This document shows positions 7,823 to 22,469 of a stretch of 24,260 nucleotides of DNA, one piece after another. The DNA comes from a virus: IMG/VR virus record IMGVR_UViG_3300025316_001103, positions 1 through 24,260 of that record; one strand, 5' to 3'. The notes under the pieces are model-generated. The model had not been told where the DNA came from. It saw only the letters and a program-made list of their open reading frames with translations, and did no database searches. Position 1 is the stretch's first letter. Each line of letters opens with the position of its first letter. A program made the translations under genes and the position numbers.

Positions 7823-7862
7823 CGAAATTCGCTCGATAATACTGATGAGCAAAGGAGGCCAA

Positions 7863-8456
7863 ATGAATTCGAAATGGTACTTTTTTGTGGTTTTCACAAT
7901 TCTGTGGCTCGTTGGAACAACGGTTTATTCGTTTAATTATATAGTCGTTCCAGATGGGTCAACATATCGATTTGAGTGTGTAAAATTCATATTTCTCTCA
8001 ATTTCGGCGTTTGGTGTTTTGTTTTCAACGGTGTTAAGTTCTTACAATTCACTGGAATCAACCTCAAATATTAAAGATAAGATCGCTTTCGATAAAACCG
8101 AAAATTCTTTTGCATATATGCTGCGATGGGATTCGGACTCACTAAAAGAAGCAAGAGATGAGACGAGACGCATTAAAAAAAATGTAGACGAGGTGTCTCC
8201 ACGCGATCTGTTAGCCAATATTAGCGGTGAAGAGTCTCTCGAAAGGTCAGTCATTACGATGTTTAATTTTTTTGAGGAAATTCATCTTTCAATCCAAGAA
8301 AAAAGAGTTAATGAAAAAATTCTCAAACAAGCTTTTGCAGGTGTATATATTGACATCTATTGGCGGTTTAAAGGATGGATAGATGCCAATATTACCGGCG
8401 AACAAAAAAAGAATCTTGAAGGCCTGAACACCCTTTGGGGTAATTTGCAGTCATGA
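7863..8456 (+). CDS. DUF4760-like two-helix membrane protein (cargo)
   Basis: The ATG at 7863 follows a perfect AAAGGAGG site and is preferred over an in-frame ATG 18 bases upstream. The 197-residue protein has two membrane helices (about 5-27 and 40-62) and a cytoplasmic charged domain. The segment FNFFEEIHLSIQEKRVNE and VYIDIYWRFKGW resembles the DUF4760 family; the function of that family is unknown. The gene is visibly AT-rich with A/T-ending codons, unlike the GC-rich genes on both sides, so it is probably a recent acquisition (a moron). A role in blocking infection by other phages is possible but is only a guess. It overlaps the next gene as ATGA. Confidence 0.7.
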   Translation: MNSKWYFFVVFTILWLVGTTVYSFNYIVVPDGSTYRFECVKFIFLSISAFGVLFSTVLSSYNSLESTSNIKDKIAFDKTENSFAYMLRWDSDSLKEARDETRRIKKNVDEVSPRDLLANISGEESLERSVITMFNFFEEIHLSIQEKRVNEKILKQAFAGVYIDIYWRFKGWIDANITGEQKKNLEGLNTLWGNLQS

Positions 8457-8794: not shown

Positions 8795-9029
8795 ATCGAA
8801 TAGACAGTTTCACTTTCGAACATCCGGCTGCAGTCTGGAGGCGCGCATTTTACGTTCCCGGCTCGCTATCGCTCGCCGCTGCCATCCCCTCCCAACGGGC
8901 CAACGCCACGCGAGGAGGGTATCGCCACAGCGGGACGCCCCGTGCCCCCCGTCGGCTCCGTTGTCGCCTCCTGCTCACTGCCGTTCGCCCGCCTCGGTCG
9001 CTGCCCGCTCCCTCGCAGCACCCCGCTGC

Positions 9030-9084
9030 GGGCTTGTCACGCGGCGTGCATGGCGAAGCGCCTGCCACGCCGTGCGCCAAGCCC
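9030..9084. repeat. Triple-nested stem-loop
   Basis: GGGCTTG (9030-9036) pairs with CAAGCCC (9078-9084); CGGCGTG (9042-9048) with CACGCCG (9066-9072); GGCG with CGCC at the tip around AAG. The internal loops are symmetrical, five by five and three by three. GCAGC/GCTGC forms another hairpin just upstream. Such regular helices with matched internal loops are typical of folded RNA. Confidence 0.65.
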
Positions 9085-9164
9085 TCCGCTTCGGCGCGAA
9101 GCGCGCCGTCCCCGCCGCCGCCAGCAGTCCGGCCCCGGCTGTTGCGCTGGCGTCGTGAAGCACT

Positions 9165-9213
9165 CCGGCGTGTATGGCCTCCCTGCGAAGCGCCGGGCGG
9201 CCACCCACGCCGG
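9165..9213. repeat. Nested stem-loop
   Basis: CCGGCGTG (9165-9172) pairs with CACGCCGG (9206-9213), TGGCC (9175-9179) with GGCCA (9199-9203), and CCC-x-GCG with CGC-x-GGG around an AAG tip, giving three stacked helices. The GCG-AAG-CGC tip resembles that of the 9030-9084 structure. Confidence 0.6.
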
Positions 9214-9292
9214 CCGCCATGCTTACAACCGCTTGCGCCAGGTGGCCGGAGCGGCGGCGTGCGCCCCGGCACACTCGCTATTTTATGCGCCT

Positions 9293-9395
9293 TGCTTCCA
9301 GCCAGCGGCAGGACCCACTCGCTGGAAGCATCGGTCGGGCATTCGCGCTTTGGCACGCGACGTAGCGCTGAGCCAGCGCGAAGCCCGCCCGACCG
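9293..9395. repeat. Two adjacent long stem-loops
   Basis: TGCTTCCAGC (9293-9302) pairs perfectly with GCTGGAAGCA (9321-9330). Two bases later CGGTCGGGC (9332-9340) pairs perfectly with GCCCGACCG (9387-9395), enclosing TTCGCGCT (9342-9349) with AGCGCGAA (9375-9382). Confidence 0.65.
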
Positions 9396-9569
9396 GCGCA
9401 GAAAAAGCTCGGTGCCCCCCGAGCCTCCCTTACGGTCGGCTCCAGTGGAGCGCCAAAGCCGGAGCCGGAACGAGCGCGCCCCCTCACGGGCTGCGCGCGC
9501 CGGTGTGCGCCAAGGGATCCTCCCCGCCCGCGCACCGGATAGGGCAGGAGCCCTCAGCCGGTCCGCATG

Positions 9570-9623
9570 GCGGCTCCGCTGCAATGACGTTCGCCACGAG
9601 TCGAACGACGCTTCGCTCATTGC
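9570..9623. repeat. Direct-repeat copy 1 leading into a stem-loop
   Basis: GCGGCTCCGCTGCA followed by ATGACGTT (9570-9591) recurs at 9791-9812 with two changes in 22 bases. It runs into a stem with GCAATGA (9581-9587) paired to TCATTGC (9617-9623) and CGTTCG (9588-9593) to CGAACG (9602-9607). Confidence 0.55.
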
Positions 9624-9722
9624 CCGGCGCAAGCGCCGTCCGCTCCGGCCTGAAGGCTTCGGAGACCTCGTCGCACGCTCACCGGAACGCGGAACGCAAG
9701 CGGCGCACAGACATTCACCGCC

Positions 9723-9838
9723 GGGATGATCCTCCGCCGCTTCGCACGGCGCTGCGCTGGCCTGGGCGGCGGCGTTCAGATCATCCCGTTGCGGCTCCGC
9801 TGCATGGACGTTGACACGCGGCCTGTCAACGACCATGC
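9723..9838. repeat. Two stem-loops, second containing direct-repeat copy 2
   Basis: GGGATGATC (9723-9731) pairs exactly with GATCATCCC (9779-9787), with an inner CCGCCGC/GCGGCGG helix. Next, GCATGG-A-CGTTGACA (9802-9816) pairs with TGTCAACG-A-CCATGC (9824-9838): 14 pairs with one A-A mismatch and a seven-base loop. Copy 2 of the 22-base direct repeat spans 9791-9812. Confidence 0.65.
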
Positions 9839-10069
9839 CCGGCGTCAGGGTTCCATCGCGGACTCTTCACCCCAACGCCGACCGCTCCGGGCAAAAGCCC
9901 TCACGACTGCTTGCCGCTTGGCAGAACCGGACATCCGGCAGGACACCAGCAGCCCCCATGCTTACAGCTTGGCGGCGTATTTGCAGGTGTACCGTGAGGA
10001 CACAGCGTAGGACATTTTGCCCGCCACCGGCACAGGGCATTGTCGCGGCACAGGCTGCACACCCGTCCG

Positions 10070-10108
10070 CGTGTACGATCATCCGCGCAACTCTCCTGAT
10101 CGTCCACG
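10070..10108. repeat. Stem-loop with one mismatch
   Basis: CGTG-T-ACGATCA (10070-10081) pairs with TGATCGT-C-CACG (10097-10108), eleven pairs with one mismatch. A perfect AAAACCGGTTTT palindrome lies further on at 10221-10232. Confidence 0.5.
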
Positions 10109-10625
10109 GCCAAAGGCTTTCGGACGGATGTTTGCCAGACGCGCCAGCCCAGACGGTGTCAGGCAGTATTGCGGAACCCATCATCCCATTTATCCCGGAG
10201 CGCGGCGGGCGGTGCGCAGCAAAACCGGTTTTCCCCGCCAGTTTCCCCCTCTGCACTCCTCCTTCCGGCACCCCCTTTCCGAACAAATTGAATCTGGGCA
10301 AAGGGGGGCAACTTCTTGGGGCAAACCCGTTCGGGGCATTTTCCAGCACCGGTCAGGCGCGGCAGCCAAAGCCAAACGCGCCAGCCCGTTGCCGCCCCGC
10401 CCGAAGAGGGTTGCCCGCACCACTCCGCCGCTTCACCAACCCCCCAACCCCCATGGCCGGATGGACCACGCCACACGCGCGAGGACGCGCTCCCGGTTGC
10501 GTGGCCACCGGCCCGCTTTGGGGGCAGGGTCGGCTGCGGCCCGGCTCCTTCGTCGACACGGGCCTGCATCACTCCATGGTTGCGGCCATTCCAGTATGGG
10601 CGCGCAGCGCGACCGGACCAGATCC

Positions 10626-10663
10626 CCGGTCTTGCGCCATTCCCTTTTGGGGCGCAAGACCGG
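10626..10663. repeat. Perfect 13-base inverted repeat
   Basis: CCGGTCTTGCGCC (10626-10638) pairs with GGCGCAAGACCGG (10651-10663) around a 12-base loop that contains CCCTTTTGG. It is terminator-like in shape but no T run follows on either strand. Confidence 0.6.
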
Positions 10664-10805
10664 CCGCTGCACTCCGGCGGGAAGCGGCCAACGCCGCTCA
10701 GGTGGGTGGGTGGCGTGTCCGCGCAAGCCGACGCACCCGGCACCCGCCGGAGTTTCGCTGGGGTCGCCGAAGCGGCTCCAAGGTCTCGAACCCCCACCAA
10801 CCTTT

Positions 10806-10920
10806 TTAAGAGCAGAGCAGACCAGAGAAGATTAAGAATCAGATCAGAGAGGAATAAGACCAGAACGGAAATCAGACCTGAACCCTGAACCCCGAATCCT
10901 GATTCCGAAAGCAGAAAGCA
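10806..10920. repeat. T-poor, AGA/CAG-rich degenerate tract with a GFGVQGSG-type repeat
   Basis: The plus strand is very poor in T and repeats AGACCAGA, GATCAGAG and ATCAGACCTGAA with a loose spacing. At 10874-10905 the phrase CCTGAACCCTGAACCCCGAA matches a dispersed repeat that reads GFGVQGSG on the minus strand. It marks the change from the stem-rich region to the next GC-rich piece. Confidence 0.45.
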
Positions 10921-11302
10921 CCCCGGACCCCGAAAGAAGAAAGGCGGCTCCCGCTCCAGGAGCCAGGCCGCATCCGCCGCCGGAGCGCGCGCGAAGCGAC
11001 CTGCTCCGGCCAAAGGCCCGTCGCACCGCCGCGCCGTCAACCGGGGCGGTATGCGTCGCGTCGTCGCCGCGGCGCCGGTCCTTCGCCCGGATCAGGGCGC
11101 GTGCTATGGCGTCGGGCTGCGGCCCGTCTCCCTCCGCTCATTGGCCCCACCCACGACAACCGCCCACACATGCGCCGCCTTGGAGCAGGGGGCAGGGGGA
11201 TGAGGATAAAAACGTGGCGGATTCGGTTTCCCCGCACCCCCTCCAAACCTCCCCCTCGTGTATGGGGCCCCCTGATGTTTTTGATGTGAGTAATAAATTG
11301 AT

Positions 11303-11331
11303 TTTACACAACCTATTGCTCCTCAGATACA
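11303..11331 (+). promoter_or_regulatory. Possible promoter for the late operon
   Basis: TTTACA (11303-11308) and GATACA (11326-11331) are separated by 17 bases within the only AT-rich patch before the terminase genes. The -35 is close to consensus; the -10 is weak, which would fit a promoter needing an activator such as the zinc/sigma-like protein of the early operon. Confidence 0.35.
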
Positions 11332-11359
11332 TCCACATGCACCACTCTTTTTTCACATG

Positions 11360-11395
11360 CCGTTTTTGGTTGAATTCTACCCCTTTATTGAGGGG
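11360..11395. repeat. Conserved upstream element, copy A (before small terminase)
   Basis: CCGTTTTTGGTTGAATTCTA followed by CCCCTTTATTGAGGGG is nearly the same as copy B at 13042-13079, which lies before the portal gene. Both have a near-palindrome (GGTTGAATTCTACC here) and a CCC(C)TTTATT..AGGGG hairpin. Two copies placed in the leaders of structural genes suggest a shared operator or RNA control site. Confidence 0.6.
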
Positions 11396-11444
11396 ATCAC
11401 GCACTGATAACAGGCAAACCGCCATTGATAACGGAGGATAGACG

Positions 11445-11756
11445 ATGCCATTTCAACCCGGAATTTCAGGTAATCCGCAGGGTCGCCCGAAAGGGAAACG
11501 CGGCGGCCGCATTCAGGCACTGGCCGAATTGGACAAACTGCTGGCGGGCAAGAAAACCAAAAAGGCGTTGTTCCATGCCTTGGAGCTTGAGTTTGAAAAG
11601 GACACCATCAATTTCTTCAAAACCATTGTCATGCCGCTGCTGCCACGGGATGCCAAACTGGAGATGGAGAAGCCCGGCATCCTCACCTGGCGCAGTCTGG
11701 TGACCTTGCCACCGCAGGAACTGACTGGCGTTGAAAAGGAGGAGGGGGGTTCCTGA
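11445..11756 (+). CDS. Small terminase-like DNA-binding protein (DUF5681)
   Basis: The 103-residue protein begins with FQPGISGNPQGRPKGKRG, the defining pattern of DUF5681, a domain found in phage proteins directly before the large terminase. It is expected to recognise packaging sites and hand DNA to the motor. The rest is helical, with a Lys-rich middle. An ACGGAGG site precedes the ATG. The stop overlaps the large terminase start as TGATG, which fixes their ratio. It opens the late operon, about 50 bases after conserved element A. Confidence 0.75.
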   Translation: MPFQPGISGNPQGRPKGKRGGRIQALAELDKLLAGKKTKKALFHALELEFEKDTINFFKTIVMPLLPRDAKLEMEKPGILTWRSLVTLPPQELTGVEKEEGGS

Positions 11757-13027
11757 TGGGACAGGATGCCTACTACTACCCGCACGCAGCGCAGCAGGCG
11801 ATCCACAACGCCCGGGACCGCCGCTTCCGCATCGTATGCACCGGCCGCCGCTTTGGCAAGACGCTGTGTCTGGCGGCGGAGCTCTTTGACCACGGCGGCG
11901 GCACGCTGGCTGGCGACTATGGCTGGATCGCCCCGACCTACAACGTGGCGGAGCGTGGTGTCGAAGCCTTCCGTGCGATGGCCGATGGGTTTGCAAAAGT
12001 GTGCGGCCGCAACCCCTCGCGGGTGGAGTTTGCCGGGCCGATCGGTCCGGTGCGTGTGTGGTTCCTTTCCGCGGACAACCCCGACAGCATCCGCGGCTAT
12101 GGGTTCAACGGCATCGTGATCGACGAGGCGGCCTCGATACCATCCGATGTGTGGCATTACGTGATCCGCCCGACCATTTCGCAGACACTGGGCTGGGCGG
12201 TGTTCTGCAGCACGCCGAAGGGCCGGAACTGGTTCTATGACATGCATACGCGCGGGTTAGATCCCACGGAAAAGGATTACCTCAGCTTCACCTTCCCCAG
12301 CAATGCCTCGCCGTACTTTCCGGCCAAGGAATGGGTTGAAGCCTGGCGCTCATTGCCCTCCGATGTGTTCCGGCAGGAATATATGGCGGAGTTTCTAGAA
12401 GACTCGGCCGGGGTGTTCCGCAATGTGGATGGGTGCCTGATTGTGGGTGGTGAGTCGGAGCCGGTCTCCCACCGTTCGGTGGTCATCGGCTGCGATGTGG
12501 CCAAGCACACGGACTGGACCGTGCTGATTGCCATGGATGCCGAAACGGGCCGCTGCTTTGCGTGGGAGCGGTTCAACATGCTGGACTGGCCGATCCAGAA
12601 GGAGCGGATCGTGGCGTTTGCCCGCCAGCACAAGGGCAGGCTGATCCTCGACGCCACCGGCGTTGGCGATCCGATCTATGACGACCTGAAACGGGTGCTG
12701 CCGGACATTGAAGGTTTCAAACTGTCACCCATCAGCAAGATTTCTTTGATCCAGCGGCTGATGGTGGCAATCGAGCAGCGGAAGATTGGCTGGCCGGCTG
12801 ACTGGGAAATCCTGACGGCCGAGCTCAAACGCTACGAGTACCAACTCATGCCCTCCGGCGGCGTCACCTACAGCGCCCCGTCCGGCTATCACGACGACTG
12901 CGTCATTGCGCTGGCGCTGGCCAATCATGGCCGGTGGGAGGGCGAGACGATGGGGACGATGAAGGCATTTTTGCCAAGAAGGCGGCCACGTCCGCCGCTG
13001 TATGGCCGGGAGCGGGTGTTGTGGTGA
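11756..13027 (+). CDS. terL: Terminase large subunit
   Basis: The 423-residue motor protein shows Walker A CTGRRFGKT (28-36), Walker B GIVIDEA (119-125) with the catalytic Glu, and the coupling motif CSTPKG (151-156) in the ATPase half. The nuclease half has the three acidic sites GCDVAK (Asp247), ILDATG (Asp299) and YHDDCVIALALA (Asp380/381). It would drive DNA into the capsid with ATP and cut it into unit lengths. All key residues are present, and the length is normal for a compact terminase. It overlaps the DUF5681 gene and is followed by conserved element B and the portal gene. Confidence 0.95.
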   Translation: MGQDAYYYPHAAQQAIHNARDRRFRIVCTGRRFGKTLCLAAELFDHGGGTLAGDYGWIAPTYNVAERGVEAFRAMADGFAKVCGRNPSRVEFAGPIGPVRVWFLSADNPDSIRGYGFNGIVIDEAASIPSDVWHYVIRPTISQTLGWAVFCSTPKGRNWFYDMHTRGLDPTEKDYLSFTFPSNASPYFPAKEWVEAWRSLPSDVFRQEYMAEFLEDSAGVFRNVDGCLIVGGESEPVSHRSVVIGCDVAKHTDWTVLIAMDAETGRCFAWERFNMLDWPIQKERIVAFARQHKGRLILDATGVGDPIYDDLKRVLPDIEGFKLSPISKISLIQRLMVAIEQRKIGWPADWEILTAELKRYEYQLMPSGGVTYSAPSGYHDDCVIALALANHGRWEGETMGTMKAFLPRRRPRPPLYGRERVLW

Positions 13028-13041
13028 GCCGTGTTTTGCAA

Positions 13042-13079
13042 CCGTTTCTTGGTTGAATTTCAACCCTTTATTAGAGGGG
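13042..13079. repeat. Conserved upstream element, copy B (before portal)
   Basis: CCGTTTCTTGGTTGAATTTC continues into AACCCTTTATTAGAGGGG and matches copy A at about 33 of 38 positions. It contains a perfect GGTTGAA-T-TTCAACC palindrome. The GAGGGG that ends the second hairpin is the only ribosome binding site for the portal gene, so pairing with CCC could hide it and control portal synthesis. Confidence 0.6.
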
Positions 13080-13083
13080 TGTT

Positions 13084-14238
13084 ATGCGGATATATCAAAA
13101 AATCAATACCAGGCGGGAGGCGTACAATCCATTGCGGGGGTTGTCCCTCGCGCGGGTGTCGTCCATGCTGGATGCCGGGGAGCGCGGTGATTATGCCGAT
13201 CTCCAGTGGTTCTACCAGCAGATGGAACGCTCCGAACCCATGATCTTTGCCGTGATCCAGCGGCGGCTGGCCGCGCTGCTGTCCGTGGAGTGGGATATCC
13301 ACACGCTTGAACAGTCCGACGACAAGCTGGCGCAGGAGCAGGCGGACTTTCTGCGCATGGCGTATGACGGGATTGAGAACCTGCGGGAAGCTCTGGCGTT
13401 TCTGTTCACCGGGTTCTTCCGGGGCTACGCGCATGTTGAGAAGCATTTCCTCAAGAGCGGGCTGATCGAGCGGCTGGAGCCGGTGGAGCAGTGGTTCTGG
13501 TGCCGGGCCGGGATGTTTGGCGACTGGCAGTACAATCCGTTGGCAATGGGCGGCTGGATCAACAGCGTACCGATCAATCGTGAAAACTTTGTCATTTTGG
13601 AGGCTCCGGCGTTGGACCGGATGCTGTCCATCCTGTACCTGCGCAAGACAATCAGCCAGCGCGACTGGGATTCCTACCTGACGGTGTACGGCATCCCATC
13701 CATCTTCATGGTCGGACCGCCGAATCTTCCGGCCGCAAAGGAAGCGGAATACCAGGCCATAGCCGATCAACTCCTGGGCAATGGCCGCGGCTACCTGCCC
13801 AGCGGCAGCGATATTCGGTACGTCAACGCGGATGGGAAACTGCCGCCGTTCCTGCAGCATATCGAATATGCGGATGAGCAGATCACGCTGCTGGGCACGG
13901 GCGGACTGCTGACCATGCTGGCGGAAAAGGGGGCAGGCACGCTGGCCGGCAACGCGCACATGGAAACTTTTAAGGAGATCGCCCGCGCTGATTCAATTGC
14001 GTTGGCTTCCGTCATGCAGCGGGATATTGACGCGCCGCTGCTGGAGCAGTTCTTTCCCGGCCAGCCCCAGCTTGCCTACTTCACCTTCGCACCGCCGATG
14101 TCGGCGCAATCGGCTCAGGTGACCGAGGATGTGCTGAGGCTGCGGAAGGCGGGGTACACCGTCACCCCGGCGGATGTGAGCGACAAGTCAGGGTATCAGC
14201 TGGCGGATGCGCAAGTCAAAGTTAGGGGTGCGGCATGA
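13084..14238 (+). CDS. Portal protein, DUF935 (Mu gp29-like)
   Basis: The 384-residue protein matches the DUF935 portal family of Mu-like phages. Recognisable pieces are the N-terminal AVIQRRLAALLSVEWDIHT, the EKHFLKSGLIERLEPVEQWFW strand region, FVILEAPAL, and the conserved RKTISQRDWDSYLTVYGIP block with GPPN, followed by long C-terminal helices. Twelve copies would form the ring through which the terminase packs DNA and to which a neck or tail would attach. It is slightly shorter than Mu gp29. The start has GAGGGG four bases upstream. The stop overlaps the protease start. Confidence 0.85.
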   Translation: MRIYQKINTRREAYNPLRGLSLARVSSMLDAGERGDYADLQWFYQQMERSEPMIFAVIQRRLAALLSVEWDIHTLEQSDDKLAQEQADFLRMAYDGIENLREALAFLFTGFFRGYAHVEKHFLKSGLIERLEPVEQWFWCRAGMFGDWQYNPLAMGGWINSVPINRENFVILEAPALDRMLSILYLRKTISQRDWDSYLTVYGIPSIFMVGPPNLPAAKEAEYQAIADQLLGNGRGYLPSGSDIRYVNADGKLPPFLQHIEYADEQITLLGTGGLLTMLAEKGAGTLAGNAHMETFKEIARADSIALASVMQRDIDAPLLEQFFPGQPQLAYFTFAPPMSAQSAQVTEDVLRLRKAGYTVTPADVSDKSGYQLADAQVKVRGAA

Positions 14239-15311
14239 GCAAGCAATGGATACACGGGCATCAGCCGTTTGAACTGGCCGCGGATGGGTGGTCGCAGATC
14301 GCACCGCTGGGTGAGTTCTTCCACGGGGCGGATGTGATCCAGATTTTGGATGCTGAGGCTTGCATGAGCATGGTCGCCCGCTTCGATGCCGAGGCGGAGT
14401 CGCCGAATTTTGCCGGGCTGCTGGTGGATTTCGATCATCTCTCGCTTGATCTGTCTGCCCGGAGTGAAGCGGCGGGCTGGATCACCTCTTTGGCCTTCCG
14501 GGCTGAGCCTGCGGCGACTGCTGGGCTGTATGCCGCCATCCGTTGGACCGATGAGGGACAGGCGGCGATGACCGGCGGGCGGTATCGTTTTGTGTCGCCG
14601 GTGTGGTTGCGGGAGGACTGCGTGGACTTAGGGGCGGATGCACAAGGCCGGCAGCGGTTGCGGCCGGTGCGGTTGTTTAACTTGGCGGTGACGAACAATC
14701 CCAACTTGCAGGGACTGGCGCCGCTGTCGAATGCGGGTCAAAACAACCCGGCGTCGCCAGAAGGCTATGCCGGGTCAAACGAGGAGAACGGGAACATGAC
14801 AAAGGTGATCGAGTGGTTGCAGAACCGGCAATGGGTGCAGGCCGGTGCGGATGAAGCGCAGGCAATGGCGGCAATGGCTGACCTGCCGACGCCGGAACAG
14901 TGGCGCGATATTCAGGCGGCGTTGGCGAATGCCCGGACGGAAGTCGAGGCGACCAAGACTGAACTGGCCAATGCCCGTGCCACGCAGGCGGACCGGGAAT
15001 TGGCGGAGTTTGCGGGGTTGGTGGACAAGTCCTGGGAGTTCTGGAAGCAGCAACTGCTCCAGAACCGGGAGCAGACACTCGCCGTGTTGCGCGATTTGGT
15101 GGCCCTCCGTGCGGGGGCAAAGCCTGAACTGCCGGTAGTCGCCCCGGTGGTTGCTCCGTTGCACAACCGGCAGACGGTCCGTCCTGCGGTGGCGGGTCAG
15201 ACGGAGTCCGCCGCTGTGCGGATACGCAACCGGGCACAGGAGATCAGCAAGGCGGAAGGCGTGCCGTTTTCGGCCGCATTCCGGCGGGCCGAAGCGGAGA
15301 TCGTGGCGTAA
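14235..15311 (+). CDS. Mu gpI-like capsid protease with C-terminal scaffold
   Basis: The 358-residue protein has the Mu-like protease domain in its first half: the block FAGLLVDFDHLS, GWITSLAFR, AAIRWTDEGQAAMTGGRYRFVSPVW and LAVTNNPNLQGLAPL is typical of the family. The second half is a coiled-coil-like scaffold (about 225-275) and an Ala/Arg-rich C-terminus. In Mu the same layout makes a protease and, from an internal start, a separate scaffold; an internal start is visible here too. The protein would guide capsid assembly and then degrade the scaffold. It starts four bases before the portal stop ends. Confidence 0.85.
   Translation: MSKQWIHGHQPFELAADGWSQIAPLGEFFHGADVIQILDAEACMSMVARFDAEAESPNFAGLLVDFDHLSLDLSARSEAAGWITSLAFRAEPAATAGLYAAIRWTDEGQAAMTGGRYRFVSPVWLREDCVDLGADAQGRQRLRPVRLFNLAVTNNPNLQGLAPLSNAGQNNPASPEGYAGSNEENGNMTKVIEWLQNRQWVQAGADEAQAMAAMADLPTPEQWRDIQAALANARTEVEATKTELANARATQADRELAEFAGLVDKSWEFWKQQLLQNREQTLAVLRDLVALRAGAKPELPVVAPVVAPLHNRQTVRPAVAGQTESAAVRIRNRAQEISKAEGVPFSAAFRRAEAEIVA
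14796..15311 (+). CDS. Internal in-frame start giving a separate scaffold protein
   Basis: An in-frame ATG at 14796 (residue 188 of the protease) follows GAGGAGAACGGGAAC, a good ribosome binding site inside the coding sequence. The 171-residue product would be the scaffold alone, matching the Mu protease/scaffold arrangement (gpI/gpZ). It starts just after the protease domain ends at NLQGLAPL, at a Gly/Asn-rich linker. Confidence 0.65.
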   Translation: MTKVIEWLQNRQWVQAGADEAQAMAAMADLPTPEQWRDIQAALANARTEVEATKTELANARATQADRELAEFAGLVDKSWEFWKQQLLQNREQTLAVLRDLVALRAGAKPELPVVAPVVAPLHNRQTVRPAVAGQTESAAVRIRNRAQEISKAEGVPFSAAFRRAEAEIVA

Positions 15312-15338
15312 CGGAACGACACAGGAGGAGCTTTGACG

Positions 15339-16052
15339 ATGAGTGTGGATACACAGAGCAATACGCGGGTTGGCTCGCTCGCGTTCCGTGCGCTGGAGCG
15401 GTTGACCGGCATGGAGGGGCGGTTGTGCTTTTTAGCGCCGAACACCGATCCGCAGTTTGCGGCGGATCCGGTCGGCGTCCTGCTGGCCACCGGGCAGACG
15501 GACATTGTGCCGTATGTCCTCATTGAGGGCGGCGCAGTGGGTGCGCGTTGCCAGGTGCTGCCGCTCCATGGCGGCGCGAATGTCCGCATCCTGCTCAGCG
15601 GGGCGTCGGTACTGCCGGGAAATCTGCTGGTGGTGGGTGATGGACTGGAGGATCCCGGCGCACGCGGCACGGTGTCAAAGTTCGAATCCGGCGCGGCGCA
15701 TGAGCAGCGGGTGGTCGGGGTGGCCGAGGAACCGGCGGATGACGGTGCGCTGGTGCTGTGCCGTCCGTATCCGGAACTGTTCGGGCTGACCTATCCCGCG
15801 CCGGGCAACCTTATGGTCAAGCATCTGGTGTCCGTCGCGCTTCCTGCCGGGGCAACGACCGGGAGTGTCACAGGCTTGGGGTTGCCGTCGCTGCCGCTGG
15901 TTGTCGAGCTGAATGTCGAAGGTTCGGCAAATGGCGACTTTATTCTGGCCCGTGTGGTGGCGGGCAGCAAGACGCTCGACGGGTTCGCGTATGTGCTCAA
16001 CTCAGCCCCTCCTGCGACGGGCTACACACTGAAAGGAAACATCATCGTATGA
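15339..16052 (+). CDS. Capsid decoration-like protein 1 with extra C-terminal domain
   Basis: ATG 15339 follows AGGAGGAG and is better than an in-frame TTG six bases earlier. The 237-residue protein begins MSVDTQSNTRVGSLAF and shares its first 150 residues with the second decoration-like protein at 17501. The beta-rich pattern with RVVGVAEEPADDGALVLCRP near residues 125-145 is reminiscent of DUF2190-type capsid cement proteins. Unlike its paralogue it carries about 85 more residues (from LTYPAPGNLMVKH), probably a second beta domain on the outer capsid surface. The family assignment is inference. It overlaps the next gene as ATGA. Confidence 0.65.
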   Translation: MSVDTQSNTRVGSLAFRALERLTGMEGRLCFLAPNTDPQFAADPVGVLLATGQTDIVPYVLIEGGAVGARCQVLPLHGGANVRILLSGASVLPGNLLVVGDGLEDPGARGTVSKFESGAAHEQRVVGVAEEPADDGALVLCRPYPELFGLTYPAPGNLMVKHLVSVALPAGATTGSVTGLGLPSLPLVVELNVEGSANGDFILARVVAGSKTLDGFAYVLNSAPPATGYTLKGNIIV

Positions 16053-16792
16053 AAACACTGATTCCGATTCTGTTGTCGAGCCTGCTGGCCCTGTCGGCCA
16101 GGGCGCAAAGCTTTCCGCTAACAAACGCGGTGCTCAAGGGGCCGTTGAATGCCAACCTGCACCCGATCACAAATGCCTCGGACGTGATTCTGGCTGGCGG
16201 CGCATCGCTGTCCGGCGTTGCGGCCGCCGCATCGAACGCGGTGACGCGGTCCGGCGGCGGCAACATTGTGGGGCCGCTGACGGTCGGAGAATCGAACTCC
16301 GTGACCGGCCCGAACAGCTTTGCCATGGGCAAAAGGTCGCGCGCCACCGGGTACAACAGCTTTGCCGGCGGGCACGGCGCGATCGTGTCCAACAACGAGG
16401 CATTTGTGTGGGCGGCCACCTCGGCACTGCGTACGAATTCATACGATCACGGCGATGGCTCCTTTTCGGTCTATGCGCCCGCCGGAATCTGGTTCGGCAG
16501 TTCCATGCTCTACATCGACAACAATGGCTTTGTCCGGGCGCTGCCGCCGGTGGAGTACGACGATTGCCGCTATGGCGAGGACGGGTGGCACACGCTGGGT
16601 ACGGACGCTTATCGCGTGGATCCCGGCGCGATGCCCACGTGGCCCGATATGACGTATTACCGGAACGGCGATGGCGACCCGGTGTCGTTCTGGGACTTTA
16701 ATGGGGATAAGCAACCAGAGGTTAATCCGTGCGTGGCTTATTGGGGCGATACGCCACCTGCCGGTAGCGTTGGGCAACCGTGTTCATACTGA
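16049..16792 (+). CDS. Secreted fibre-like protein with YadA-head-like repeats
   Basis: The ATG at 16049 overlaps the upstream stop and has AAAGGA in front. The first 20 residues are a clear Sec signal peptide ending SARAQ. After a Asn/Gly-rich neck (GPLNANLHPITNAS) residues 89-111 read NSFAMGKRSRATG then YNSFAGGHGA, the short repeat that builds the left-handed beta-roll heads of trimeric adhesins. The C-terminal half is Tyr/Asp/Gly-rich with a few Cys and probably a compact receptor-binding or fibre tip domain. It sits between two decoration-like genes. A virion surface fibre or an exported adhesin are both possible; a signal peptide on a virion protein is unusual. Confidence 0.65.
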   Translation: MKTLIPILLSSLLALSARAQSFPLTNAVLKGPLNANLHPITNASDVILAGGASLSGVAAAASNAVTRSGGGNIVGPLTVGESNSVTGPNSFAMGKRSRATGYNSFAGGHGAIVSNNEAFVWAATSALRTNSYDHGDGSFSVYAPAGIWFGSSMLYIDNNGFVRALPPVEYDDCRYGEDGWHTLGTDAYRVDPGAMPTWPDMTYYRNGDGDPVSFWDFNGDKQPEVNPCVAYWGDTPPAGSVGQPCSY

Positions 16793-16809
16793 CCATAAAG
16801 GAGAAAACG

Positions 16810-17475
16810 ATGAAAAAGAGTCTTGTGATGGGTTTGGTTCTGCTGGGTTTTGCGGCGACAGCGCCCGCGGCTGATTGGGTGCTGCTTGAACGCACTGCCG
16901 GGGATTGGACGAACATGGTCCCGTCGAACACGGTTGTGGTTTCGTGGAGCAACAACGGGCTGCGGCGGCAGTATCTCTATCAGGGCTTCCGCAAGCCGTC
17001 CTCTTTCCCGGCGTTGTCCTACCGGCTTGAAAAGAGCCTGTTCGCGACGGGCTTTGCCAGCGTCGTCGAGGGTCAGGAAAAACTGATGCGGCAAGCTCTG
17101 GCTACCGGGCCTGAAGTCTCGTTGCACGCGCTTGAGGCCCCGTATGTGGTGCTGACCACCACGAACGGGCCGGGTGTTGGTGTGGCGGCGGACGCCAACG
17201 GCGATCTCGTGACGTGGACGGAACACGCGTCACCGTGGAACGCGGACGTGGCTTCCTCTAACCGCGTGGCCGCGCTCGGGGCAAGGAACCAGCTTCTCAG
17301 CGATACGCGCGACTTGAAGGCCTCTGTCACGAACAACATTGCCGAGGAACAGGCAATCCCCATCGAGGTCAGCACGAATGCGGTCAAGCAGCTGCGCAAG
17401 GAGCTGATCGACTTGGGGCAGGATGTCAAAACACTGCGCGGCATCGTTGCGCGGATGCTGAAACAAAACGAATAA
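16810..17475 (+). CDS. Second secreted protein of unknown function, coiled-coil C-terminus
   Basis: ATG 16810 follows AAAGGAG. Residues 1-21 form a signal peptide (Lys-Lys, then a hydrophobic core, ending APAAD). The mature 200-residue protein is not recognised: a beta-rich middle (WVLLERTAGDW, VVLTTTNGPGVGVAADANGD), then a helical tail with heptad-like spacing (about 165-217, AVKQLRKELIDLGQDVKTLR). The tail suggests a trimer or dimer. It lies directly after the fibre-like gene, so both may form one exported or surface structure. It could be a fibre partner or a host-envelope modifier. Confidence 0.6.
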   Translation: MKKSLVMGLVLLGFAATAPAADWVLLERTAGDWTNMVPSNTVVVSWSNNGLRRQYLYQGFRKPSSFPALSYRLEKSLFATGFASVVEGQEKLMRQALATGPEVSLHALEAPYVVLTTTNGPGVGVAADANGDLVTWTEHASPWNADVASSNRVAALGARNQLLSDTRDLKASVTNNIAEEQAIPIEVSTNAVKQLRKELIDLGQDVKTLRGIVARMLKQNE

Positions 17476-17500
17476 CGCGGTCAAAAAAAGGAGAAGTCGG

Positions 17501-17938
17501 ATGAGTATGGATACGCAGTCGAATACGCGGTTTGGGGATCTGGCCTTCCCGGCGGGTGAAAACCTGACTGGACTGGAAGGGCGGCTCGTGAAAGTCGAGC
17601 CGGATGAGGATGACGTGGTGGTGGCATTGCTGCCCGAAGCGGCATCCGACCGGACGCCCTACGTCCTGGTCGAGGGCGGGGATGTAGGCGAGCCGGTGCG
17701 GCTGCAGCCGTTGGCGTCGGCGCAGAATGTGCGCCTGGTGCTCAAGGGCACGTCGGTCGTGGCAGGCGACGCACTGGTGCTGGTGTCCGGGTCCGGGTAC
17801 TACGGCAAGGTCAGCGTCCTGCCCGCGACGCAGGGCACCTACCGCGTCGTGGCGATCGCGGAGGAAGCGGCGGCGGAGGGTGCGCTGGTGCGTGCCCGTC
17901 CTTGGCACGAGGTCGTGGTGGTTGCAGGTCAGCAGTAA
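17501..17938 (+). CDS. Capsid decoration-like protein 2 (paralogue of 15339-16052)
   Basis: The 145-residue protein begins MSMDTQSNTRFGDLAFPAGENLTGLEGRL, a close copy of the start of the decoration-like protein at 15339, and keeps the same blocks (TPYVLVEGGDVG, VRLVLKGTSVVAGDALVL, YRVVAIAEEAAAEGALVRARP). It lacks the extra C-terminal domain. This is the usual length for a capsid cement protein and it lies directly before the major capsid gene, so it is likely the main decoration protein; the longer paralogue may carry a display domain. AAAGGAG precedes its start. Confidence 0.7.
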   Translation: MSMDTQSNTRFGDLAFPAGENLTGLEGRLVKVEPDEDDVVVALLPEAASDRTPYVLVEGGDVGEPVRLQPLASAQNVRLVLKGTSVVAGDALVLVSGSGYYGKVSVLPATQGTYRVVAIAEEAAAEGALVRARPWHEVVVVAGQQ

Positions 17939-17965
17939 ACGTCAGTCAAAACAAGGAGAGCAAAA

Positions 17966-18910
17966 ATGAGTCGTTTGAGTTCTATCAGTTCAAATCCCAC
18001 CCTGCGCCAGTTCGCACAGGGTGCGGCGCAGAGCGCCATCATGCCGGTGGCGGACTTCCTGGCGCCGACCATCGAGGTGGCCACGAGTGTGGGCCGCTAC
18101 AAGGTGTATTCCGAAAAGCACCGGTTCCACATCCCGGACACGCTGCGCACGCTGGGCGGGCGCGCGTCCGAGCTGCGGTTCGACGTGAGCGACGCGACGT
18201 ACAACTGCGAGCCGCACGCGCTGGACTTCCCGGTGGACAACCTCGAGCAGCTGGAGGAATCCGGCCTTGAGAACATGCTGCGCGAAGGCGCAACGTCCGT
18301 TGCGGAAGTGGCCGCGCTGGCCCATGAAAAGACCGTGATCGATGCGGCCCTGGCCGCGGTGGGCGCGGGCACGGGCAAGACGTGGAACGCGGCGGCCGAT
18401 CCGGTGGCGGACATCGACGACACCATCCTGAGCGTCATCAAGGCGGCCAAGTATGGCTCGCTGATGGGCGTCGGCGTCCTGTTCGGTGCCACGGCGTGGA
18501 AGATCTTCAAGAACCAGGCTGCTGTGCGCGGCCGGTTCGTGGTCGGCAACGGCTCTGCCAAGTCCGGGCTGGGGCTGGCGGTGCCCACGGAGGCGTCGGC
18601 GGGTCAGATGTTCCTTGGCACACCTGAGGTGCGCACGTCGTACATGATTTACGACGCGGCGGCCGAGGGGATTGCCGAGAGCGTCCACTTCCTGCTGGAC
18701 AACGCCGTGCTGGTTTTTGCGCGCAAGAGCCAGCCGACGCGGCGTGATCCGTCGTTCATGAAGACATTCCGTCTCATGGGCCAGTATATGGTCCCCGGGT
18801 CGTACACCCGCGACGACGGCCGCGTCGAAGTGGCGAAGTTCGACTGGTCCGAGGACGTGAAGGTCACGAACTCGGCCGCGTGCGTGCGGCTGAACATTTC
18901 AGCCTCGTAA
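17966..18910 (+). CDS. Major capsid protein, HK97 type
   Basis: The 314-residue protein lies after protease, scaffold and decoration genes, the normal place of the major capsid gene. Features fitting the HK97 fold are the N-terminal helix, the long segment YKVYSEKHRFHIPDTLRTLG (E-loop region), the spine-helix region with ENMLREGATSVAEVAALAHEK at about 94-114, the P-domain helix TILSVIKAAKYG and the C-terminal strands ending in the DWSEDVKVTNSAACVRLN block. Many copies would form the shell. A strong hairpin sits right after the stop. The exact family (Mu-like or another coat family) cannot be settled by eye. Confidence 0.8.
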   Translation: MSRLSSISSNPTLRQFAQGAAQSAIMPVADFLAPTIEVATSVGRYKVYSEKHRFHIPDTLRTLGGRASELRFDVSDATYNCEPHALDFPVDNLEQLEESGLENMLREGATSVAEVAALAHEKTVIDAALAAVGAGTGKTWNAAADPVADIDDTILSVIKAAKYGSLMGVGVLFGATAWKIFKNQAAVRGRFVVGNGSAKSGLGLAVPTEASAGQMFLGTPEVRTSYMIYDAAAEGIAESVHFLLDNAVLVFARKSQPTRRDPSFMKTFRLMGQYMVPGSYTRDDGRVEVAKFDWSEDVKVTNSAACVRLNISAS

Positions 18911-18918
18911 GCAACCGT

Positions 18919-18947
18919 AGCCGGTCCCGGCACATCCGGGGCCGGCT
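18919..18947 (+). terminator. 12-pair hairpin after the major capsid gene
   Basis: AGCCGGTCCCGG (18919-18930) pairs with CCGGGGCCGGCT (18936-18947), with one G-T wobble and a five-base loop. There is no T run. It may protect the capsid mRNA or partially stop transcription, so that capsid protein is made in excess over the next genes. Confidence 0.6.
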
Positions 18948-18968
18948 GCCTATTGAAGGGGGTGGGTT

Positions 18969-19400
18969 ATGGTGGCCGTCAACTGGTACTCGGTAACGCC
19001 GTATAACGTCCGCGACACCATGCCGATCGACATGCAGGGTATCTATGACGCTTGGGTGGCGATGAATCCCGCCAAGGCGATGGCGCTGACCAAGATCATT
19101 TCACGCGTGGTGGCGTTCGTTCGCACCGTGGCCGCGAATGACCCGGACTTAGAGATGGATCCGGACGTCAGTAGGGTCCCGTTCTCGCTGGCGCAGCATA
19201 CGATCACGCTGTGTCTATTCCATCTCAAGACGGAGATGGGCGTCATTATGACTGACGGGGATTACGTTTCATTCAGCCGGGCGGAGATCGCGCTCAGGCA
19301 GGGGTTGCGGGCCGGGGTGCTTGACCTGACTGGGCCGACGGTTGCGGCGGCAGCAGGATCGCCTTCGTACCAGCAACCGGAGGGAACTGACAATGGCTGA
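18969..19400 (+). CDS. Neck/head-completion candidate
   Basis: The 143-residue protein directly follows the major capsid gene, where head-completion (connector) proteins normally lie. It is helical, beginning MVAVNWYSVTPYNV, with a central pair of helices (AWVAMNPAKAMALTKIISRVVAFVRTVA and FSLAQHTITLCLFHLKTEMG) and a low-complexity end. That is compatible with Mu gp36-like or HK97 gp6-like adaptors, but I recognise no firm family signature. The start has GAAGGGGG upstream. If it is the connector, it is the last virion gene before the lysis-like genes. Confidence 0.5.
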   Translation: MVAVNWYSVTPYNVRDTMPIDMQGIYDAWVAMNPAKAMALTKIISRVVAFVRTVAANDPDLEMDPDVSRVPFSLAQHTITLCLFHLKTEMGVIMTDGDYVSFSRAEIALRQGLRAGVLDLTGPTVAAAAGSPSYQQPEGTDNG

Positions 19401-19623
19401 TCCATGCTTGCACGAACATGACTGGGGCAAGATCGAGGAGTGGCGCACGGACACCAGCGCCAAGCTGGACAAGATCCTCGAACAAACCACCGCGCACAAC
19501 GGGCGGATGCTGGCGCTGGAACGGTGGCGCACGGTGTTGACCACCGCCGTCACCACGCTGGTGCTGTCCAATGCCGGGAACATCGGCGCTGGGCTGAAGT
19601 CGCTGAAGGAGTTGCTGCAATGA
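19393..19623 (+). CDS. XhlA/holin-like small membrane protein
   Basis: ATG 19393 overlaps the upstream stop by eight bases and has GGAGGGAA upstream. The 76-residue protein has a charged coiled-coil-like N-terminal half with LDKILEQTTAHNGRMLALERWR, followed by a single membrane helix (about 48-66). This layout matches XhlA-like or small holin proteins of prophages, which help release lysins across the inner membrane. The stop overlaps the next gene as ATGA. No clear second holin component is visible. Confidence 0.6.
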   Translation: MADPCLHEHDWGKIEEWRTDTSAKLDKILEQTTAHNGRMLALERWRTVLTTAVTTLVLSNAGNIGAGLKSLKELLQ

Positions 19624-20018
19624 GCGGCCGCTGCGGCATTCTGGGGTGCGGCAAGGGGCGCAGCGAGGGGCTTAGCCGCAAGATCGAGCTGGACCGCATC
19701 CTCATGTCTTTCGACGTGCTGAACGTGCCAAAGGATATCCGGGTGCTGATCCTCGAAGCGCTGAACTCCGACAAGTGGGATTGGTTCAAGGACTGCGACG
19801 GCTGCACCGGCGTTTCGGAGATGTACTGGCCGACGATCTACTTTCCGCCCTGCCTGCGCCATGACTTCGACTGCACACCGGGCGTGGGCACCCCGCGCTG
19901 GGTTGCCAATGCGCGGTTCTACCGCATCCAGCGCGCCTATGGCGTCTCTGCCCTCCGCTCAGGCATTCGCTGGCTGGGCGTCACCGTGGCGTGGTATGGC
20001 TGGCTGAAGTGGACTTAA
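19620..20018 (+). CDS. Small protein with a phospholipase A2-like CxxHD motif
   Basis: ATG 19620 overlaps the upstream stop. The 132-residue protein carries PPCLRHDFDC at 76-85: Cys78, His81, Asp82 and Cys85 resemble the phospholipase A2 active-site motif (CCxxHDxC), with one extra residue before the last Cys. After it comes RWVANARFYRIQRAYGV, which would supply the second helix. Other cysteines (5, 10, 59, 62) could form disulfides. The end is a hydrophobic Trp-rich segment. Its place after a holin-like gene suggests a lysis role by attacking membrane lipids or the outer membrane, but the activity is inference. No classical endolysin is seen. Confidence 0.5.
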   Translation: MSGRCGILGCGKGRSEGLSRKIELDRILMSFDVLNVPKDIRVLILEALNSDKWDWFKDCDGCTGVSEMYWPTIYFPPCLRHDFDCTPGVGTPRWVANARFYRIQRAYGVSALRSGIRWLGVTVAWYGWLKWT

Positions 20019-20086: not shown

Positions 20087-22102
20087 TCATTTCTCCACGT
20101 CGAAACGACTCAGGAGACTATCCCAATCGTCAACAATGATAATCTTCCTATCACGAAAACCCTTGAGTGTAGCCTTAACGCTTTGGGTGATTCTGTCCGC
20201 AAACCCAGTCAATTGGTTTTCAGCAGCGAGCGAAAGCGCCTCTGTATTCCCCTGAATATGCCGGAGTTGAGCCGTCTCGTCTCTTCGTATCTGGCGCAAC
20301 AGCATCGCCGTTGCAGCCATCGACTGATCAAATGTCGCACCATCACGGCGGCGCACCTCCGGCACTTCCTTCGTGATGTCTTCGTCAAAAGGAGTGAGGA
20401 AGGCCATGCACTGGAGATAAATCAGATTGAAGGGCAGATTCGTAAGGAACTCACGACCAAGAAGTGTACTTTCGTCGGAGACTGTGATTGACTCAATGTG
20501 GTCATCTTTCAACTTCACGCCCTCCGGTGACGCGATGACATCGGCCAGTAGCATGTCATTGAGTGACTTGCGCGAGACGCAGTCAGGATGGCCCAACTGG
20601 TCTAGCATTGAAAGGAGTTTGTCGACATTTCGATCAGAACAGGACAACATGCGCAAGATGTACCATCTATTCAGGGAATTCGCGAAGTGACTGCCTGTAC
20701 CGCAGGAGAACAAGTTTAGAAGCATCTGATCGGGGGGTGGCGCAACGAGGGCATTTGAGTCGCGTAGTATGGAGCGTAGAATGTCGTGTTGCGAAAAATG
20801 TACGTCTGCATGCCCCTGAGAAAAGAAGTTAACGTAATCGCACCATTCAATCGCACGAGAACGGAGACACGCGAGAAGAAATTCAGACTGCCGCCTCATG
20901 TCAAAACTGGAAAGACGAGCCATAACAACGTCGTTGTTTTGGTCGCTGTAGTTCTGATTGAATCTGTGCAACATCTGGGTAAGCGCTGTCTTCGGCACAT
21001 CTAACGTTTTCCCGTCATCCATAGTTATGTTATAACGGTCGGCAGTCAATTCGCTGTCAAAAGAACGAATGCGGGCCGCAAGAAATGCATGCAACGGGGG
21101 CGGAAAGATTCGAACTCTGGGTGGATCAGTGAATGCTTGGACAACGCTTTCCTTGTACACCTTATCAAGCAAATAGGACCTTACTCCCAGAATGAACACG
21201 ACTTTGTCTATGCTCCGTATCCAGTCCAGTTTATGTCGTGCGAGCATGTAGAAACGATCCTGCAATGTCTGCGGCGTCTGATCCACATTGTCCATAACGA
21301 AAATGAAGGACACTCCGCACTTCTCGGTAAGATACTCCACAAGGGTGCGATTAAAATCGTGATATTCTTCATCTGCCGCGTAGGAAACATAACTATTGTT
21401 GAACTCTAGGAGCCACTTGATGATAGCACGCGGCCTCTCATTGCGGGGGAAGTCGCGCTCAAGTTCCTCGATTGCGACGGGATTTCTCCTGTGCTGGTGC
21501 CTGGCTACCTCAAAGAGGTAGGTAGGCGAAAGTGCCCAAGGAAATGCAGCTGTGAGCGCGCGGTGGATCTTGTTGTCGTAATCGTTTTCAATGTTGCTTC
21601 CAAAACCGCTCAACCCCATCGACACACGAATCACAATGTGCCTTGGAAACAGGGTTGGTTCCGTCTTGGGAAGCCAATGGTAGAAAAAGTGCCGAAGGAA
21701 TGTGGTCTTGCCGTGGCCTGTCTGACCATGAACTAAAATCACCTGTTTGATGCCATCAATCGGGTCCGCCTTCAACTCTCGCAAGAGTTCGGCTTCAGGC
21801 GGTTCGCCAACCTCATGAAGACGGCCAGCCGGGCACGTTCGTTCGGGCACGTACCACGCCCAGTCGCTAATCCTGTGGCGCACATCTTGGACAGGGTGTG
21901 GGATGCCTTTGCCTTGAAGAAGTTCGGGGCCAATGTACATCACCTCTTCGGTAATCGCAGACTCGATCTCCTTAATAGTTGTGGGTTTTGCCTTGTCGGA
22001 GAGCATCCTCCGAAGTTGCTGCGAAAATGCTCTCCAGAAAGCGTTGGTGAACTGCCCGAAGTTTCGCGCAATCAAGTCCGGTACAATGGCCGAATAACGC
22101 AT
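20087..22102 (-). CDS. Large P-loop ATPase (STAND/AAA-like), candidate defence effector/sensor
   Basis: I choose ATG at 22102 because AAGGAG lies six bases upstream; an earlier start at 22198 would overlap the preceding gene by 77 bases. The 671-residue protein has Walker A GQTGHGKTT (126-134), a Walker B VSFIFVMDNVD (264-274) and a sensor-like VVFILGVRSY near 300. Long helical regions follow with no recognised repeat. STAND-type ATPases with a partner upstream are frequent in bacterial conflict systems, where they detect a phage component and trigger a response. It shares a transcript with the Trypco2-like gene 19 bases upstream. No nuclease, TIR or protease domain is visible in it, so the effector action is unknown. 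Confidence 0.7.
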   Translation of the reverse strand: MRYSAIVPDLIARNFGQFTNAFWRAFSQQLRRMLSDKAKPTTIKEIESAITEEVMYIGPELLQGKGIPHPVQDVRHRISDWAWYVPERTCPAGRLHEVGEPPEAELLRELKADPIDGIKQVILVHGQTGHGKTTFLRHFFYHWLPKTEPTLFPRHIVIRVSMGLSGFGSNIENDYDNKIHRALTAAFPWALSPTYLFEVARHQHRRNPVAIEELERDFPRNERPRAIIKWLLEFNNSYVSYAADEEYHDFNRTLVEYLTEKCGVSFIFVMDNVDQTPQTLQDRFYMLARHKLDWIRSIDKVVFILGVRSYLLDKVYKESVVQAFTDPPRVRIFPPPLHAFLAARIRSFDSELTADRYNITMDDGKTLDVPKTALTQMLHRFNQNYSDQNNDVVMARLSSFDMRRQSEFLLACLRSRAIEWCDYVNFFSQGHADVHFSQHDILRSILRDSNALVAPPPDQMLLNLFSCGTGSHFANSLNRWYILRMLSCSDRNVDKLLSMLDQLGHPDCVSRKSLNDMLLADVIASPEGVKLKDDHIESITVSDESTLLGREFLTNLPFNLIYLQCMAFLTPFDEDITKEVPEVRRRDGATFDQSMAATAMLLRQIRRDETAQLRHIQGNTEALSLAAENQLTGFADRITQSVKATLKGFRDRKIIIVDDWDSLLSRFDVEK

Positions 22103-22121
22103 GGATAACTCCTTTTCCGTT

Positions 22122-22469
22122 TCAGGCATGTGGAGGTAGTTGCAGGGGAACACGGAACTTAATCCTGTTCTGTTGTGTATCGGTCGCGGTTGAGGCACCT
22201 TGCGAACCCAACCCGAAGGAAGCGATCACGATTCCGATCGTGCCTTTTGTCTTCGTCCCTTTTTCCGTGGAGACACAAAGGTCAAACTCAACCATGTCAA
22301 TCAGGGAATTGGTTGATGCATCGTGCAGAGAGGATTCAAGAATGGAGCGACCGATCATGGCTCCGCACGGGTTGACCCGCGCCCCCTTCTTTATCACGGC
22401 TTTCTGGGCACGAGCGACGCCTGCGACGATCTCGCTCATGGTGGTTGCTACAAAGTCCGAAAGTCTCAT
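22122..22469 (-). CDS. Trypco2-like protein, partner of the ATPase
   Basis: The 115-residue protein starts after AAAGGAG. Its second half, IDMVEFDLCVSTEKGTKTKG through GIVIASFGLG to RIKFRVPLQLP, matches by eye the trypsin-co-occurring domain 2 (Trypco2) pattern: a beta-sandwich of strands with the phrases VEFDLxV and FRVPLxLP. The N-terminal helix LSDFVATTMSEIVAGVARAQ is likewise typical. Such domains sit beside P-loop NTPases and proteases in predicted conflict systems. Here it precedes a large ATPase in the same operon, so it is probably the ATPase's signalling partner. No protease gene is nearby. Confidence 0.6.
   Translation of the reverse strand: MRLSDFVATTMSEIVAGVARAQKAVIKKGARVNPCGAMIGRSILESSLHDASTNSLIDMVEFDLCVSTEKGTKTKGTIGIVIASFGLGSQGASTATDTQQNRIKFRVPLQLPPHA

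Follow-up and report, generated by a model that had tools for sequence, protein, structure and literature searches.

Capsid-forming phage-inducible chromosomal islands (cfPICIs) take only tails from a helper phage, as stated in a passage of PMC11389934 that cites Alqurainy 2023. Their capsids form clades of their own within the phage capsid tree (PMC11389934); their mean length is 14 kb, and they are found mainly in Enterobacteriaceae and Firmicutes (PMC10803314). The Streptomyces satellites Mulch and Flayer also encode encapsidation machinery (PMC10690885). Here we describe an element known from a 24,260-base stretch of DNA (the window), which makes up the whole of the public virus record IMGVR_UViG_3300025316_001103. 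By gene content it is likened to cfPICIs, as it carries an integrase, its own replication, packaging and capsid genes, and no tail genes. It differs from them in size (34-56 kb between attachment (att) sites in its relatives, the window alone being 24.3 kb, versus ~14 kb), in its Mu-type portal, protease and adaptor, in its Kiritimatiellota-type hosts, and in having a large cargo, a structured RNA locus and no known helper. Mulch and Flayer lack key replication genes, and Flayer has a tail adaptation of its own, whereas the present element has replication genes and no tails. On balance, and with modest confidence, we read the window as most of an integrative element that would be a tail-borrowing, cargo-carrying satellite of a tail-less, head-encoding lineage.

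Two groups of tailed phages share parts of this head machinery. Mu-like phages have Portal_Mu, a Mu I-like protease and a gp36-type adaptor in the same order, but the present element has a tyrosine integrase associated with tRNA genes instead of a transposase and lacks a tail module. Tailed Verrucomicrobiota phages of clade B (e.g., L098-L118 and G011-G025) have a homologous protease, decoration protein, major capsid protein (MCP; 51-70% identical to that of the window) and adaptor, and most of them a homologous portal or terminase; in clade B, however, tail genes follow the adaptor.

The window was searched with Pfam and PHROGs, where several weak matches fall below curated cut-offs. Its head module (11445-19400, plus strand), in which all frames are open and undamaged, begins with a small terminase, terS (11445-11756; DUF5681, 2e-6; conserved ahead of terL), and the large terminase terL (11756-13027; Terminase_6N, 6e-11, and Terminase_6C; phrog_2, 3e-46). 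These are followed by a Mu-type portal (13084-14238; Portal_Mu, 6e-41), a Mu I-like head maturation protease/scaffold (14235-15311; Mu-like_Pro, 3e-21; phrog_328, 7e-26), the MCP (17966-18910; phrog_1005, 2e-26, and the capsid tree) and a head-tail adaptor of the Mu gp36 type without the C-terminal ending of its tailed relatives (18969-19400; identified by hhalign and a structural model). A prior interpretation made from the letters alone (the sequence-only reading) had described this set, terminase pair, portal, protease/scaffold, MCP and a connector candidate, as present and intact, and had seen no tail genes; neither Pfam nor PHROGs identifies a tail gene in the window. Its decoration proteins correspond to two paralogous small head proteins of one shared cluster (15336-16052 and 17501-17938, the latter conserved ahead of the MCP), which fit that label by position and are named by no library match. 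Between them lie a protein with a YadA head repeat and a signal peptide, possibly a fibre (16049-16792; YadA_head, 4e-4, sub-threshold), and a signal-peptide protein without assigned function (16810-17475). Lysis-like genes do stand directly after the connector, as had been proposed, but as two open reading frames (ORFs) and not as a single gene at 19440-20018: a small, conserved holin-like protein encoded towards the end of the late genes (19393-19623; cluster g19393, function inferred by eye) and a phospholipase-A2-like, possible lysis protein (19620-20018; Phospholip_A2_3, 0.047 here and 8e-4 in the relative L074, both below the cut-off).

The window starts with an ATG at base 1 and stops at the end of the reverse-complemented integrase start codon; its relatives G002 and G003 likewise have ATG at the start and CAT at the integrase end. 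From such exact gene borders, both ends of the window are probably the product of computational provirus trimming rather than attachment sites; by analogy with relatives, its right attachment site may lie just past base 24260 and cargo to the left of base 1. Because the record is a trimmed provirus, the absence of tails was tested in relatives. With the capsid protein as query, viral contigs yielded 32 relatives and genome contigs 52; the portal as a single-protein query found no relative in viral contigs, and the MCP matched none of the named phages. Genes in the relatives, most of which are carried by metagenome assemblies, were called with a simple purpose-written caller, and the resulting maps sort into two types. 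Type A comprises the window, G001-G004, G007-G009 and many genome loci; behind its MCP come the small connector, a handful of secreted or fibre-like proteins, a holin-like protein and, in some loci, a lysis-like one, at which point the element ends. Type B loci share these head genes but run on into further genes, and a scan of 79 post-capsid type B proteins returned Mu gp36 adaptors, a tape measure match, and minor tail and tail fibre families; the method thus sees tails where they are present. For 100 type A late-region proteins, nearly all post-capsid, no tail or neck family appeared among the PHROGs matches listed (25 of 28), and the remaining three were single weak ones.

In L005 and L006, only 2.2-3.6 kb separate the MCP from the integrase, and neither the window nor the Pontiella-type elements have a long, tape-measure-like gene after the adaptor. 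Several relatives have minus-strand ORFs inserted between the terL, portal and protease genes (head modules of L034, L042, L074 and L081). A sister subclade (L097, L105, L122, L100 and L091) encodes extra proteins of 440-1150 amino acids, some of which have a nuclease domain, between its portal and capsid genes; no tail assignment was obtained for them, and they are possibly internal virion proteins. Taken as sequence comparisons, these data strongly support a tail-less mobile element predicted to form capsids.

Attachment sites in relatives were located by a genome-wide pattern search together with long contigs; an exact repeat search around the first genome loci had given only short chance matches, with contig ends or the second copy outside the stretch. 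In Pontiellaceae bacterium B12227, a 46-bp exact repeat, which is the 3' part of an intact tRNA-Pro gene, occurs in two copies 50,426 bp apart, with the integrase 157 bp from the tRNA (54-56% identical to the integrases of G002 and G003, ~30% to that of the window). Between these repeats lie, in order, cargo genes, the early module, the head module and late accessory genes, and tails are absent. At tRNA-Arg in G078, the repeat is 48 bp long and its copies lie 40,722 bp apart; the genome G117 has two mapped pairs: ~51 bp with one mismatch at tRNA-Val in copy d (33,889 bp apart) and ~45 bp with four mismatches in copy a (55,772 bp apart). All four repeat pairs fall in the 3' part of tRNA genes, and no tail genes lie between both mapped sites in any of these four relatives (33.9-55.8 kb). 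In G117, the left attachment site of copy b was not located, nor was any site of copy c. The integrase of copy d, on the minus strand beside the tRNA, matches the right end of the window, where the tyrosine integrase gene (22626-24260, minus strand; Phage_integrase, 5e-13; homologous to the B12227 integrase) is located, and the G002 and G003 integrases occupy the equivalent end. In 12 loci, a tRNA gene follows the late genes or the integrase within ~1 kb; thus, an attachment site usually closes the late module, and a tail module would have no space there. The other place considered by the sequence-only reading for tail genes, to the left of base 1, is rejected for the four relatives with both sites mapped, the window's own sites being outside the record. 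With no tail genes between its attachment sites, the lineage must either take its tails from other viruses or function without any.

Variable cargo lies between the attachment site and the early module (L140, L127, L163, L166, L154 and L155). Among 45 cargo proteins from four elements, nine match Sulfatase, and further matches include glycoside hydrolase 65, alpha-1,3-glucanase, sugar transporters, esterases, a methylase, restriction subunits and an FtsK-like protein, so that the bounded members carry genes for polysaccharide degradation or restriction; the cargo assigned to G117 copy a depends on its imperfect repeat. G117 carries four related tail-less elements on one 3.88-Mb contig (C1; L153-L164), near 0.70, 2.58, 2.95 and 3.39 Mb; three of the four sit at tRNA genes.

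In a capsid tree of 62 proteins, 33 type A loci stand on one side of a single branch (SH-aLRT 96) and 25 type B loci on the other; the tree was built by a quick method with a midpoint root, and the type labels come from the gene maps. The capsid of the window groups with those of Verrucomicrobiota phages. The ratio of nonsynonymous to synonymous substitution (dN/dS) in ten Pontiella-type elements reveals purifying selection on the head genes (MCP 0.07, portal 0.09, protease 0.13, decoration protein 0.25, adaptor 0.31); values are 0.34 for c26, a conserved small protein that relatives encode behind the adaptor, and 0.13 for the holin-like protein. The single clade and the low dN/dS indicate that the type A ancestor was already tail-less and that head function has been retained since. 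A capsid match was found in 41 of 288 sampled genomes of B12227's class, ~26 of them at E below 1e-150. As far as can be judged from these sequences, the family is old, widespread and intact in Kiritimatiellota-type bacteria and constitutes a so far unnamed lineage of this phylum and its relatives; no description of such elements in Kiritimatiellota was found in the open-licence literature.

The proposed life cycle is as follows. By sequence comparison, the lineage inserts at tRNA genes by means of its tyrosine integrase and brings along replication genes, a terminase pair, portal, protease, capsid and, closing the head, a gp36-type adaptor. With this set, the element would excise, replicate and package its own DNA into its own heads, and the lysis genes would release the filled heads. 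These most likely become infectious by joining tails of a phage in the same cell, as capsid-forming satellites do. The adaptor is central to this scheme: hhalign shows the window's connector to be a homologue of the head-tail adaptor of type B (98.9%, E=1e-17), a member of the Mu gp36 family, and the AlphaFold2 model of this connector (mean predicted local distance difference test score, pLDDT, 85) has the Mu neck, Sf6 gp7 and P22 gp4 among its best solved matches, with weak E-values. Thus, the structural set ends at the piece where a tail would join. The satellite logic put forward by the sequence-only reading is supported in anatomy, as the comparison of relatives points to a capsid-forming, tail-less mobile element; that tails are borrowed from a helper is our inference.

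Several observations weigh against tail borrowing. Of 25 type B adaptors, 23 have a C-terminal pair of glycine and a hydrophobic residue, as against none of 35 type A adaptors; since type A adaptors are without this ending, the docking of a standard tail may have been lost. The adaptor is also the only neck component recognisable in type A; a stopper and a tail terminator were not recognised. The suggestion that co-resident prophages with matching neck proteins might be found gained nothing from the G117 chromosome with its four elements: Terminase_6N occurs there only in those elements, there is no TerL_ATPase or PhageMin_Tail match, and one sub-threshold GpA fragment is set among ordinary genes. 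By these four families, which do not cover every phage, no helper was detected in carrier genomes and no tailed prophage in this chromosome. The tape-measure family PF20155 was tried as a helper marker and set aside as too rare (5 of 14 controls). A lytic phage that infects the carrier might serve as helper, or the particles might need no tail. Finally, many relatives have fibre-like proteins after the adaptor, for which a pure tail thief has no obvious use.

A possible, clearly less probable explanation is that the element is a self-sufficient, nearly or wholly tail-less virus whose DNA-filled heads, with fibre-like proteins (YadA-head, beta-propeller, beta-helix and c26) set directly at the portal vertex, would deliver DNA without helper tails. 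The model of c26 is a beta-sandwich resembling phage virion proteins, and its variable partner starts with a conserved W-[IL]-x-DG; the resemblance keeps an autonomous tail-less particle in consideration. The large extra proteins within the head operon of the sister subclade, some with a nuclease domain, would fit such a virus, as would the changed adaptor C-terminus and the lack of a detected co-resident tailed prophage. Many of the fibre-like late proteins carry signal-peptide-like starts, as judged by a heuristic, and would be ill-suited to cytoplasmic assembly, though such starts also occur in tailed relatives (32 of 202), and the G117 orthologues are without them and may be virion parts. 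The late proteins of tailed Verrucomicrobiota phages that start in this way include a tail fibre (L059 13548-16262; L118 14607-16574). Membrane budding with secreted spikes was also considered and is weakened both by the G117 orthologues and by the tailed relatives. Two further points count against a self-sufficient virus: in the window, only the two lysis-like ORFs follow the adaptor, and we know of no double-stranded DNA phage with a portal and an HK97-like capsid that infects without any tail structure. A fuller version, in which autonomous infectious particles made of portal, adaptor and attached fibres have exchanged the tail module for cargo such as polysaccharide-degradation genes and a new giant structured RNA (see below) takes part in the cycle, is more doubtful still.

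Other explanations fare worse. A temperate phage with a tail so divergent in its proteins that the libraries miss it is improbable: most phage families are unnamed in PHROGs and several clade A proteins have no match, but there is no space for a tail module, with 0.6 kb of lysis-like genes after the window's adaptor and the short MCP-integrase intervals of L005 and L006, and a long tape-measure-like gene is missing. Decay of a prophage, or domestication of its head genes by the host, might be read from a stop in the MCP of a few copies (G032 C30, G257 and G313) and from the inserted genes that break up some head operons. However, intact frames in most copies, one old clade spread over many hosts under purifying selection, att pairs with adjoining integrases, and four intact copies in one chromosome speak against it, so that the decayed prophage considered by the sequence-only reading is rejected and the wider explanation is very unlikely. 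Least probable is a gene transfer agent (GTA) that packages host DNA at random, also raised earlier; heads that come with cargo genes and the lack of a visible helper would suit it, but the element's own terS, integrase, excisionase-like gene, replication module and tRNA attachment sites are those of a self-packaging mobile element. Moreover, the GTAs known to us all have tails.

Between the early genes and terS, the window has a GC-rich, structured non-coding block (8795-11444, minus strand) that contains no supported gene and folds with z down to -7.2 and -5.1. It is the positional equivalent of a ~2-kb structured RNA locus conserved in relatives: ten Pontiella-type elements have 1.7-2.5 kb of non-coding sequence, conserved in stretches, between a sigma-like gene and terS (e.g., L035 9259-11604 and L153 13288-15287), and the block of B12227 is longer and carries inserted genes. 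When 300-nt windows were folded against shuffles, mean z was -2.5 to -4.6 in four relatives versus -0.3 to 0.1 in head genes; for the window block, mean z is -1.8 and the best value -7.2. In one RNA block aligned from nine sequences, 93.3% of pair cells are standard and 22 of 40 pairs have changes on both sides, with a covariation score of 0.51 versus 0.25 when shuffled and 0.07-0.13 when slid; the compensatory changes are on the minus strand. A covariance model built from this alignment found the B12227 copy at the expected place and on the expected strand (E 0.04), and other weak matches were treated as chance. It did not find the window block, for which no sequence homology to the relatives' RNA was detected. 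A comparison with Rfam gave no family, and a permissive search returned only tRNA and chance miRNA matches. The conserved locus is probably a new large structured RNA, likely on the strand opposite to the late genes. GOLLD and ROOL are large structured RNAs of unknown function found in phages (PMC12286853); the locus described here differs in having no Rfam match and in its place between the early and late modules.

The early module, all on the plus strand, opens with two genes without assigned function: L1 (1-1191), which has weak homologues (21-28%) at the equivalent place in att-bounded relatives, and L2 (1188-2129), kept at the left end of the module in relatives. They are followed by an HTH_17 excisionase/AlpA-like regulator (2365-2730; Pfam HTH_17, 2e-6; phrog_66, 1e-6), a phrog_862 protein without assigned function (2809-3351), a PD-(D/E)XK exonuclease (3452-4243; phrog_298, 2e-26), a weakly matched primase-like protein (4580-5515; phrog_3123, 2e-4; phrog_2597, 0.03), a helicase-type AAA ATPase (5490-6716; AAA_25, 2e-22; phrog_239, 4e-15), and a PDDEXK/RusA-like Holliday junction resolvase (6896-7336; phrog_244, 7e-20). 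The last gene of the series, conserved directly ahead of the non-coding block, encodes a sigma-70 region-4-like regulator (7323-7775; Sigma70_r4_2, 0.005, sub-threshold, and synteny). Of the primase, helicase and integrase named by the sequence-only reading, the latter two are thus well matched and the primase weakly so, and its statement that there is no CI-like repressor agrees with the window ORFs scanned, where none was seen. A DUF4760 gene (7845-8456) has a G+C content of ~0.36 inside an element of 0.60 and is read as a recent insertion. Between the lysis-like genes and the integrase sits a STAND/AAA ATPase, possibly a defence accessory (20087-22198, minus strand; AAA_16, 6e-6; NACHT, 2e-4; below curated cut-offs).

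In the literature consulted, the known hosts of capsid-forming satellites are Enterobacteria with their relatives, and Firmicutes. The elements described here would extend this range to an environmental phylum and to a lineage that appears ancient, with members two to four times larger and up to four per chromosome. Pontiellaceae bacterium B12227 is an apparent isolate that carries such an element. The lineage may also offer a route for the spread of sulfatase, glycosidase and restriction genes in Kiritimatiellota.

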